From: a bacterium
Lineage (GTDB): Bacteria > UBP18 > UBA7526
DNA length: 32,940 bases
Assembly (NCBI GenBank): GCA_030615855.1
Contig: JAUWYL010000014.1
Coordinates: 1 to 32,940 of the forward strand
Direction of reading: 5' to 3'
Positions 26,054-32,530 of this stretch are shown here, piece by piece; position 1 is the first letter of the stretch; every line of letters begins with the position of its first letter. The notes beneath the pieces are model-generated. The model was not told where the DNA came from and searched no databases. It was given only the letters and a program-made list of their open reading frames with translations. The position numbers and the translations under genes are program-made.

Positions 26054-26107
26054 TTATTACGTCTTGACCAGAACTTAGCCCTCAAAGTAACAAGGTTCTT
26101 GACGAAG

Positions 26108-26425
26108 TCAAGGCGTCCTTATAATTTCCTTGATGAGCAATGCAGTATATTCCTGGCGATGCCCGGCCTTTCTTCTGTATCCCTTCCTCTTCTTGAACTT
26201 ACCGATCACTATCTTCTTCTCCCTCCCCTGCTCCTTCACCTCTGCAATAACCTTTGCTCCAGAGAGAAGGGGCCTTCCCACCAGGACCTGATCCTCATCC
26301 TTGATCAGTAGGACTTCCTTTAGCTCTATCTTCTCTCTCACTTTGGAGTCTATTCTTTCTGTGCGGATAGTATCCCCGACCTCTATTTTATACTGCTTGC
26401 TTCCGCTTTGGATTATGGCGTACAT
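26108..26425 (-). CDS. rplU: 50S ribosomal protein L21
   Basis: MYAIIQSGSKQYKIEVGDTIRTERID...GKFKKRKGYRRKAGHRQEYTALLIKEI. Start corrected from 26437 (TTG) to ATG 26425 with SD GGAG. Confidence 0.95.
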   Translation of the reverse strand: MYAIIQSGSKQYKIEVGDTIRTERIDSKVREKIELKEVLLIKDEDQVLVGRPLLSGAKVIAEVKEQGREKKIVIGKFKKRKGYRRKAGHRQEYTALLIKEIIRTP

Positions 26426-26542
26426 ATCGTTCTCCAATTACTCTATTTTATTTCAATAAAAGAGTCAACTTGTTTGGCTCATTTTAAGGTACCGAAATTT
26501 CAATAAAACAAGGTTCTTGTGAAGCGAGGTTTTTATTTGTTA

Positions 26543-27686: not shown

Positions 27687-27775
27687 GAGTTGACAAGTTA
27701 ATAAGTTAATAAGTTAATGCGGTAATGCGAAATGCGTTAATGCGAAAAAAAGTTAACACATTAATGCGAAAATAA
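27687..27775. repeat. Octamer array (AAGTTAAT / GCGTTAAT vocabularies)
   Basis: GAGTTGAC AAGTTAAT AAGTTAAT AAGTTAAT GCGGTAAT GCGAAAT GCGTTAAT ... ACATTAAT GCGAAAAT. Confidence 0.8.
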
Positions 27776-27843
27776 GAACCTTTCGCTTTGCTCAAGAACC
27801 TTGTTTTCTCGCTTTGCTCGAAAATACGGGAATAAGTGATTAA

Positions 27844-29816: not shown

Positions 29817-30323
29817 TTACCAAACCTTTGTCTCATTAGAAGTATTTCTAATGGGGGTTATCCTCTTAAAGACGTAAAAGAGGAGAGGGGTAAGAAGGGA
29901 GGTATAGAGAGAAGCGGGAAGGATGATGTAAAGAAAACAGTGGCGGAAGGGTGGGGTAAGATAGAACGAGGAGAGGAGAATGAAGAGAATCATTCCTTCC
30001 AAGAACATGCCTATAAATAGAAGGAGCCCCTGGGTGAGGGGGGCTTTGAAATATAGAAGGGGAGCAACCACTCCTGCTAAAAATCCAAGAACCGTCTTAG
30101 AGAAAGCATTGGTCCCTAATGAGACGGGGGAAAAAAGATCCAAAAGAATCCCGGCCAAGAAACCACACCAGGCTCCAGAGATGGGTCCTTTATAAAGACC
30201 TATAAAGATGACCAGTATGAGGAGAAGGTCGGGCTTAATTCCCAGGATGCTCAGCCGATTCAAGAGGGTGGCCTGGAGAATAGCCAGGAAGAGAAGGAGG
30301 ATGAAGGGAACTATTCTTCTCAT
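29817..30323 (-). CDS. mreD: Rod-shape determining protein MreD
   Basis: Hydrophobic ~168 aa (LNRLSILGIKPDLLLILVIFIGLYKGPISGAWCGFLAGILLDLFS) between mreC and mrdA; ATGA overlap with mreC. Confidence 0.92.
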   Translation of the reverse strand: MRRIVPFILLLFLAILQATLLNRLSILGIKPDLLLILVIFIGLYKGPISGAWCGFLAGILLDLFSPVSLGTNAFSKTVLGFLAGVVAPLLYFKAPLTQGLLLFIGMFLEGMILFILLSSFYLTPPFRHCFLYIILPASLYTSLLTPLLFYVFKRITPIRNTSNETKVW

Positions 30324-31042
30324 TGAGTCTTAAGGACTAGGACCTCTTCTAAGCTGCTCAGGTTTACTTCTGGGATAACAACTATCTTCAAGAAGAGGTC
30401 CTGGGGATGGGGAGGTTCTATTTTCTTTACTCTTCCTATGGCCAGACCCTTAGGGAAGAGCCCGCCTTCTAAACCAGAGGTGATGACTAGATCCCCCTCC
30501 CGGACATCTGCCCCTAAGGGGAGATACTTCAAGATGAGATACTTTCCCTTTCCCTGGATTACTCCCTGAATACGACTCCTCTGAACTAAAGCACCGATCT
30601 CGCTTCCCGGATCGGTGATGAGCAAAACCTGGGAAGAGTTTTTATTCGCCTTAATTACTCTTCCTGCCAGGCCCTTTGGGGTAATTACTACAGAATTCTT
30701 TTCTACTCCCCACTTTTCCCCTCTATCGAGAAGAAGGGCATGGAACCAGTTGCTTGGCTCCCGGGCAATGACAGAAGAGACCAGACCCTCATAGATGGAA
30801 TGCTCCTTTAGGTCCAAGAGCCTCCGTAACCTCTTATTTTCCTCTTCGACCTCAAGCAAGAACCTCTCTTTTCCTTGGACTGGCACTTCTTTCGGTCCAG
30901 AAGGTGCCCTGGCCAGGACCTTCACTGGCAGGTAGATAATGGTGGTTAGGCCCTCCTCTAATTTAGTACCCCGCTTCTTAGAGAGCAAAAAAAAGAGAGC
31001 TATTAAAATAAGCAAAACTAAAACAAAAACTTTCTTCTTCAT
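30320..31042 (-). CDS. mreC: Rod-shape determining protein MreC
   Basis: EEENKRLRRLLDLKEHSIYEGLVSSVIAREPSNWFHALLLDRGEKWGVEKNSVVITPKGLAGRVIKANKNSSQVLLITDPGSEIGALVQRSRIQGVIQGKG. Confidence 0.95.
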   Translation of the reverse strand: MKKKVFVLVLLILIALFFLLSKKRGTKLEEGLTTIIYLPVKVLARAPSGPKEVPVQGKERFLLEVEEENKRLRRLLDLKEHSIYEGLVSSVIAREPSNWFHALLLDRGEKWGVEKNSVVITPKGLAGRVIKANKNSSQVLLITDPGSEIGALVQRSRIQGVIQGKGKYLILKYLPLGADVREGDLVITSGLEGGLFPKGLAIGRVKKIEPPHPQDLFLKIVVIPEVNLSSLEEVLVLKTQ

Positions 31043-31086: not shown

Positions 31087-31480
31087 ACGCGGATACTCAA
31101 CGTACTTTCCCGCTTCTAGCGGGACCCCGCCATTCGGCGGTGGCGTTTGCCTTGAGGAGTAACCGCTGATAATAAGGAAGCCTCCCCGATTCATCGGGGA
31201 GAACCTTGTTATTCGGGCTTCTTTAGTAGAGGGGGCAAGCAAATGCGCGCCCTTATAATAAAGATGCCTTCGCTTTGCGAAGAACTTTGTTATTCCTCCG
31301 CATCTTTAGTAGACGAGGCAAGCGAAGCGCGTCGTCATAATAAAGACGCCTTCGCTTCGCGAAGAACTTTGTTATGCCAGCGCGTCTTTATTAGACAGGG
31401 CAAGTGAAACGCACTGTCATAATCTGCGGTCATTGCTTGATATTCATGCTCTCTCGGATGAAAGCTGTGCGCATCCGGCA
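31087..31480. repeat. mreB-mreC intergenic structured repeat array: multi-hairpin domain, three tandem ~82-86 bp palindromic units, and a terminal hairpin
   Basis: Unit A 31171-31256, unit B 31257-31338, unit C 31339-31420, each AATAA-stem1-C-stem2-AACYTTGTTAT-stem1'-stem3; flanking hairpins TCCCGCTtctAGCGGGA and CGGATG...CATCCG. Confidence 0.85.
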
Positions 31481-31489
31481 TCTGCGTCC

Positions 31490-32530
31490 TCAGTAGCGGT
31501 GATGGATAGGAGCTAAAATGTGCTTTAGGGTATCCAGTTCATCCAGGACCTTACCCGTTCCTAGAACAACTGTAGACATAGGATCCTCATCGAGATTAAC
31601 GGGAAGTCCGGTCTCCTCAGAGAGTAGCCTATCCATTCCCCGGAGCATGGCTCCCCCACCTGCCATCATAATTCCTCTCTCCATAATGTCTGCGGATAGC
31701 TCTGGTGGGGTACGTTCTAAGGTGCTCTTCACCGCCTCCACAATGACCCCTAAGGTTTCTTGTAAGGCTTTTCTTATCTCCTGGGAAGTGATGGTCACTG
31801 TCTTGGGCAAACCTGCTATCAGGTCCCTTCCCTTCACCTCCAGGGTGAGTTCCTCTTTTAAGGGGTAGGCGCTCCCAATCCTTATCTTAATCTCCTCTGC
31901 AGTATGCTCTCCAATAGCCAGGTTATAGGTCTTCTTAAGATAGGCCATAATGGCCTCATCCATCTCATTCCCGGCCACGCGAATCGAGCGATGACAGACG
32001 ATCCCGCCCAATGAGATTACTGCTACCTCACAGGTTCCCCCACCAACATCTACGATCATATTTCCCGCGGGTTCGGCAATGGGGAGTCCGGCTCCAATGG
32101 CGGCAGCCATGGGCTCCTCAATAAGATAAACCTCTCTGGCTCCTGCCTGCCGAGCGGATTCTTCCACCGCCCTCTTCTCCACCCCTGTTATTCCTAAGGG
32201 AACACAGACGATAATTCGGGGTCTTACCAGGGCCCTTCTCTTATGGGCCTTGGTAATGAAGTAGCGTAGCATCTCCTCTGTGACCTCGAAATCGGCGATT
32301 ACTCCGTCCTTCATAGGTCGGATGGCCACGATATTGGCCGGGGTCCTTCCCAGCATCCTTTTGGCATCGCTTCCCACCGCCACTACCTTGCCTGTCTCTT
32401 TCAGGATGGCCACCACGCTTGGTTCCCTCAAAATAATTCCCTGGCCCTTAACATAGGCTAAGGTGGTAGAGGTCCCCAGATCGATGGCCACATCGTTAGA
32501 GAATATTCCCAAGAACCAATCGAATAACAT
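31490..32530 (-). CDS. mreB: Rod-shape determining actin-like protein MreB
   Basis: [30 protein letters not shown]...GTPANIV-like [32 protein letters not shown]...[19 protein letters not shown]; perfect SD AAAGGAGGTTGTAAG. Confidence 0.97.

Follow-up and report, generated by a model that had tools for sequence, protein, structure and literature searches.

The gap between mreB and mreC in the window, by which we mean the whole stretch of 32,940 nucleotides that was analysed, is occupied by three head-to-tail units (31171 to 31420, plus strand) that are supported as copies of a dispersed, mobile and modular element, in all likelihood a non-autonomous miniature element of palindromic build. The element is best read as a mobile repeat specific to this lineage, non-autonomous and built of two hairpins, whose action resembles that of REPs and Rickettsia palindromic elements (RPEs). 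Selection on its structure probably acts through mobility rather than through a local function. Because the units are mobile and dispersed, lie in both orientations relative to genes and also occur within coding genes, the array is probably not a regulator of the mre genes, which are on the minus strand (mreC at 30320 to 31042, mreB at 31490 to 32530).

Each unit is modular, consisting of a left hairpin module, F, and a right REP-like hairpin, H. The parts of the array are as follows, G001 being the genome of a sister species:

31163 to 31173, plus strand: left junction, CGCTGATAAT; its empty-site counterpart in G001 is CCGCTGATATCTGTGG
31171 to 31256, plus strand: unit A, an F+H element (covariance-model match of 104 bits, E 1.2e-20); its F module has stem 1, in which TAAGGAAGCC pairs with GGGCTTCTTTA, around stem 2, CTCCCCGAT/ATCGGGGAG, plus the invariant AGAACCTTGTTAT; its H module is GAGGGGGCAAGCAAATGCGCGCCCTT, with the right end ATAAT
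31224 to 31259, plus strand: H hairpin of unit A, with guide AGTA and right end TAAT
31257 to 31338, plus strand: unit B, an F+H element, matching a unit elsewhere in the sister species (G001:C116) at 100% identity
31307 to 31341, plus strand: H hairpin of unit B (H-model match of 59.8 bits)
31339 to 31420, plus strand: unit C, an F+H element, with 93-95% identity to units of other species and genera
31389 to 31423, plus strand: H hairpin of unit C (H-model match)
31419 to 31430, plus strand: right junction, ATAATCTGCGGT, formed by the right end of unit C and the flank, from the comparison with G001

The preliminary description had placed the three units exactly, on the plus strand, and every pairing arm that it listed was found, but it understated the length of stem 1, which is really 10-12 bp (12 bp in unit C, where TAATAAAGACGC pairs with GCGTCTTTATTA). 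Stem 2 is nested within stem 1. Stem 3 forms a hairpin of its own, in which an internal G.G or G.A mismatch is conserved and the apex is GC/GC plus GC(GAA)GC. The shared word AACYTTGTTAT has eight exact or one-mismatch matches in the window, compared with 1.3 expected, and its three exact matches are units A, B and C.

As plus-strand DNA, units A, B and C fold better than all 200 dinucleotide shuffles (z = -3.2, -3.9 and -5.3), and folding of the minus strand is weaker (z = -2.4, -2.4 and -4.5). The proposal that the arms diverge while their pairing is preserved was supported by covariation over the 11 full units of the window genome and, in the genome-wide alignment that had been suggested as a check, over 41 different H sequences. 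Among the full units, 10 of 24 pairs have changed on both sides, and 96.2% of cells pair; this share drops to 86% in shuffles and to 59% or less with a slid partner. Both-side changes affect 10 of 13 pairs in H, whose covariation score is 0.349; shuffles give 0.176 +/- 0.012 (0 of 500 reach the observed value) and slid partners at most 0.158; the unit and H copies are related sequences, and these shuffle controls overstate the significance. One-sided changes in 116 distinct H rows, read in the plus sense, comprise 55 G.T and 17 A.C, with a binomial p of 8e-6 that serves as a guide only, the copies being related. Because of this preference for G.T, the folded strand is most likely the plus strand, opposite to the mre transcript, as had been surmised from the wobble positions of unit A. 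The units have no match above chance in Rfam at gathering or relaxed thresholds, which agrees with the earlier statement that no named family was recognised.

The word GAACYTTGTTAT occurs 11 times in the window genome (1.375 Mb, 45 contigs), compared with zero occurrences of the reversed control word, and all 11 copies are full units. Covariance model R1 recovers the same 11 (E < 1e-15), followed by shorter matches of about 30-39 bits, which are stem 3, that is H, standing alone. R1 units are present in all six genomes of the family, comprising G000 (the window's own), G001 and G002 of one genus together with G003 to G005, and in 0 of 54 others. A pattern scan of GTDB matched only four MAGs, all of this family: CSMAG_2684, CSMAG_2758, KR13_S3.mb.88 and HyVt-354. 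The host lineage looks isolated, in a searched panel with no genomes between family and domain level.

The two modules also occur separately. H, with or without F, is found by model R2 in all six family genomes (48, 37, 29, 6, 30 and 48 copies in G000 to G005) and in 0 of 284 genomes outside the family; its commonest stand-alone form is TTAGACGAGGCAAGCGAAGCGCGTCGTCATAAT, and its apical core, GGCAAGCGAAGCGCG, is fixed while the lower arms covary freely. The F module is laid out as AATAAGG..CCT, a hairpin and AGAACCTTGTT, and also appears alone or with other right ends. Counts of this last word in the six genomes are 40, 44, 28, 2, 27 and 36, whereas the reversed control word occurs 0-1 times. 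Three F-type elements lie elsewhere in the window:

26054 to 26125, minus strand: F-type element ATAAGGACGCC[TTGACTTCGTCAA]GAACCTTGTTAC without H, from the F-word search, and a weak match to model R1 (23 bits)
26500 to 26538, minus strand: F-type element AAATAAAAACCTCGCTTCACAAGAACCTTGTTTTATT, adjoining the reverse complement of a family D left hairpin
27771 to 27825, plus strand: F-type element with another right end, AATAAGAACCTTTCGCTTTGCTCAAGAACCTTGTTTTCTCGCTTTGCTCGAAAAT, from the F-word search

The upstream neighbour of H is generally another hairpin, variable in sequence (138 distinct contexts), a place that F takes in the window units; across the 127 contexts with enough upstream sequence, the longest stem there averages 7.5, compared with 5.6 in shuffled sequence. 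Further families include D, with a unit of 57 bp, and C, with 42-bp units in head-to-tail arrays. Family C arrays (ATCTGTCGCTAGACAGAAACGGGGCAAGCGAAGCGCGCCGTT) are seen at loci L143, L144, L145, L150 and L152 of G004 and G005, several of them lying between a family D element and the TTTT that forms its right end, which looks like amplification within that element. Additionally, at one locus in each of two genomes (L035:1635-1689 and L080:1636-1690), a hairpin, CCTGCTTGTCGGCAGACAGG or a close variant, sits exactly in the apical loop of H.

Units A, B and C are 71-83% identical to one another and closer to units elsewhere than to their neighbours in the array. Local tandem duplication is rejected on this ground, and the preliminary description was right to deny a simple duplication. 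Judged from these similarities, three different subfamilies meet in the array, which would have arisen by three separate insertions into the intergenic spacer. The orthologous gap of G001 is empty, reading CCGCTGAT/ATCTGTGG where the window reads CCGCTGAT, the three units and ATCTGCGG. The G001 gap carries a different F element 20 bp off, at a position that is empty in G000. Similarly, units occupy the -10 box TATAAT of rpsO in G000 and G005 but are missing there in G001, G002, G003 and G004, and four family D insertions within coding genes have empty counterparts in relatives.

Units lying in frame within coding genes were found in DnaA, MiaA, MnmE, a lipid A acyltransferase (two units), endonuclease V, an aminotransferase and type III pantothenate kinase, and Pfam still detects the protein family around or beside the insert. 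The miaA gene at L077:863-2116 (plus strand, G005:C18) holds four tandem units of 28 codons with the frame kept, adding about 112 residues within the IPP transferase domain, and dnaA at L058:270-1715 (minus strand, G004:C100) holds one in-frame unit (NKEALPQSGKNLVTRASLVEGASEARPHN) in its N-terminal domain, ahead of the ATPase domain. Both orientations and different frames are represented among the intragenic units. Their length is a multiple of three in 13 of 15 units in open reading frames, compared with 11 of 30 (Fisher p = 0.002), an excess that is partly circular because long spanning frames were required and these select in-frame inserts. Units that hit genes would survive only when their length is divisible by three and they contain no stop.

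The 5' foot of H suggests how a copy may choose its site. Past one bulged base, the 4-6 bases of this foot have their complement in the right end, T', and in many copies also in the left-flank word, T. Over 62 distinct combinations, guide and right end pair at 3.29 of 5 positions, compared with 2.36 +/- 0.12 when right ends are shuffled (maximum 2.77 in 2000 shuffles), a control that likewise overstates the significance because the copies are related. Target and guide change together in the classes TAAT/ATTA, TAAA/TTTA, TTTTG/CAAAA, TTTCG/CGAAA, TATTAA/TTAATA and TCTGTC/GACAGA; within the window, the guide ATTA at the H foot of unit C pairs with TAAT on either side. The foot tetramer is AGTA in 35 of 128 H copies, mostly giving AGTAG, and others are ATTA, AAAA, CAGA, AATA, TTTA and GAAA. 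The guide rule is blurred by family C, whose right ends often match the guide of a neighbouring family D element and not their own, and the left flanks of F+H elements match TAAT loosely (ATGAT, CGAT, GGAT, GAAAT). Some junctions are ambiguous, as an intrinsic right end and a short duplication of the target would look the same; the empty sites are precise, but with a right end that resembles the target the junctions are also compatible with duplications of 0-6 bp. Elements of the IS200/IS605 family produce no or minimal target duplication.

The element would be recognised as two hairpins on one DNA strand. A putative single-strand nuclease or transposase would recognise H and, in the manner of IS200/IS605 elements and REPs, pick its cleavage and target sites by letting the foot bases pair with T. 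The second hairpin, to the left of H, has an almost arbitrary sequence, its place being taken by F in the window units. With the target word present again at the right end (TAAT in units A, B and C), an incoming copy would be able to insert beside an old one and head-to-tail arrays would form; the array in the window would then have no specific role in mre expression. Taken alone, this guided single-strand mechanism falls somewhat short of an even chance. We suggest only tentatively, as a proposal with the odds rather against it, that the guide bases have diversified together with the target words TAAT, TAAA, TTTTG, TTTCG, TATTAA and TCTGTC within one lineage, a natural retargeting by guide-target pairing that would be carried out by a single-strand enzyme other than a recognisable Y1.

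Two copies with the guide CGAAA bear on this mechanism. Behind H, their flank is ATTTCG or ATTCCG; at the L169 site, ATTTCG is the sequence in three out of four empty orthologs, and the single available ortholog of L180 reads ATCTCA. We read these flanks and orthologs as guided insertion, with copying of the target into the element as the main alternative. The left hairpin and the complementarity between T and guide could both be by-products of DNA synthesis, the target having been copied into its reverse complement by snap-back or template switching during insertion or repair, with the guide playing no part in the choice of target. Such an origin, which competes with the mechanism and not with mobility, would account for the stems of arbitrary sequence left of H, some of them long and perfect (ATTGATTCTT...AAGAATCAAT and GAAAAAATC...GATTTTTTC), and for the head-to-tail reiteration within arrays, but it is unlikely in view of three further observations. 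Pairing of T and guide can be imperfect, as at L161 (target ATTTGA, guide TAAAA); the left T at L191 matches the guide and not the target in the ortholog, so that T came with the element; and both CGAAA copies share the subfamily sequence GCATCGG, which indicates an inherited guide.

The enzyme that would move the two-hairpin element was sought in the six family genomes, which are 53-94% complete. Y1 transposase (PF01797) was found in 0 of 6 even at E <= 1, with control genomes positive, and the same six yielded no reverse transcriptase and no TnpB above cut-off. All three are rejected as movers, bar one sub-threshold TnpB-like match, and the mover is therefore missing, foreign or of another kind. 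A single gene could escape detection in one incomplete genome, less easily in all six. The sole sub-threshold match (G004:C46:3129-3269, L233) is to a TnpB-like Zn-ribbon, at E 5.6e-5 and below the Pfam cut-off, in an open frame of 331 aa.

H resembles REPs of the GTAG-3 type, which are mobilised by TnpA-REP (RAYT), in its short palindrome, internal mismatch, GC/GC apex and unpaired tag at the 5' foot, and in having copies that are dispersed, clustered and sometimes inside genes (PMC3733652). A palindrome of 20-40 bp with many dispersed copies, here 6-48 per genome, is a further likeness. The differences are that the tag of H is not a conserved GTAG or CGTC but varies with the flanking word, that no RAYT/Y1 transposase (PF01797) was found in the six incomplete genomes, and that head-to-tail arrays, absent or under-represented in most known REPs (PMC3733652), are common in the present family. 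By the tests made, with a variable tag, no RAYT and no sequence match to E. coli REPs, the element is not a member of the GTAG/RAYT class. Searched with the R2 model of H, a 49 kb stretch of E. coli K-12 spanning the malE-malF gap, a REP site, gave nothing at E values up to 10; homology of H to E. coli REPs is thus not supported by the model, and the likeness is one of resemblance only.

The REP-like shape with its conserved stem mismatch, the dispersal and the tandem arrays would also suit DNA structural sites domesticated by the host and kept for chromosome function, with mobility secondary. E. coli BIMEs, which bind gyrase, IHF or Pol I, are sites of this kind. A mobile element fits better with the low copy number (6-48 H per genome), the strong polymorphism between sister species and the insertion into essential reading frames, and domestication is very unlikely.

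RPEs are likewise palindromic repeats that lie in frame within unrelated housekeeping genes (PMC10969869, PMC3733652), as the present units do in DnaA, MiaA, MnmE and others. CGTC-tagged repeats, including two RPE families, apparently do without a dedicated transposase (PMC3733652). Compared by description, the present repeats differ from RPEs in their host lineage, two-hairpin build, tandem units within one gene (four in miaA) and unit length, 42-92 bp as against about 150 bp for the first RPEs. A likeness to IS200/IS605 elements lies in strand specificity and in a hairpin whose 5' foot carries a guide that is the complement of the cleavage or target site (PMC8266576). For IS200/IS605 elements, and for REPs in the one case tested, a tetranucleotide so placed determines by its complementarity where cleavage occurs, and altering this guide retargets IS608 (PMC8266576). 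The present elements differ in that no tnpA or full-length parent was found for them, in a left hairpin of free sequence, and in guides that vary in length and pair more perfectly than IS608 does with its mixed linear and cross pairing.

Some copies lie directly behind -10 boxes. A good -10 box together with a -35 box at 16-18 bp is present at 12 of 49 sites, compared with 2-9 at other spacings, and these include two perfect TTGACA-17-TATAAT promoters; this modest excess is suggestive of promoter targeting. Copies so placed, as at rpsO, would form the 5' end of a leader, and together with the promoter spacing, the strong RNA folding of the units and a structure rich in G.T on the plus strand this could point to a structured RNA, whether a riboswitch-like leader, an antisense RNA or an attenuator, acting on mreBC or on the genes behind the copies. 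Such an RNA is highly improbable, as copies lie in both orientations to genes and in several frames inside them, the same site is filled in one sister species and empty in another, the neighbouring genes inspected share no pathway, and the units have neither a T-tract terminator nor an Rfam match. A riboswitch or a role in mre regulation is made unlikely by the empty mreB-mreC site and the copies inside coding genes. Integron attC sites, considered for their structured, sequence-free arms and AAC/GTT words, are dismissed, as the array lies directly between the mre genes with no cassettes between units.

The spread of palindromic DNA in frame through coding genes is known above all from Rickettsia, and the present lineage has repeats of a different build with the same behaviour. 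Empty sites in sister species bracket the boundaries of the elements, several subfamilies co-exist, and the guide-like tag changes with the target. Should the guide rule prove right, nature would have run an experiment on programmable single-strand insertion in the genomes of this family. Through the repeats in dnaA and miaA, the way in which proteins accommodate 19-112 additional residues also becomes open to test.

Other features of the lineage's intergenic regions deserve mention. A hairpin-rich leader (GCCGTTGCTGGGAGAATCGCCTCCCC...GATTCTCTCGGCAATTGGC) lies upstream of rpsO, for example at L082:1700-1840 (reverse complement) and L035:1690-1770; it is conserved in five of the six genomes, not being seen in G003, had no Rfam match in the one copy tested, and is possibly an S15 autoregulatory leader. 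Further short palindromes, CCCGCTTCTAGCGGG and CCCCGCCATTCGGCGG, occur at 31100 to 31165 of the window and in other intergenic gaps of the lineage, which are also filled by the reiterated phrases ACACGGATT, CTTACTGCTTACTGC and CAGATTATCAGA.
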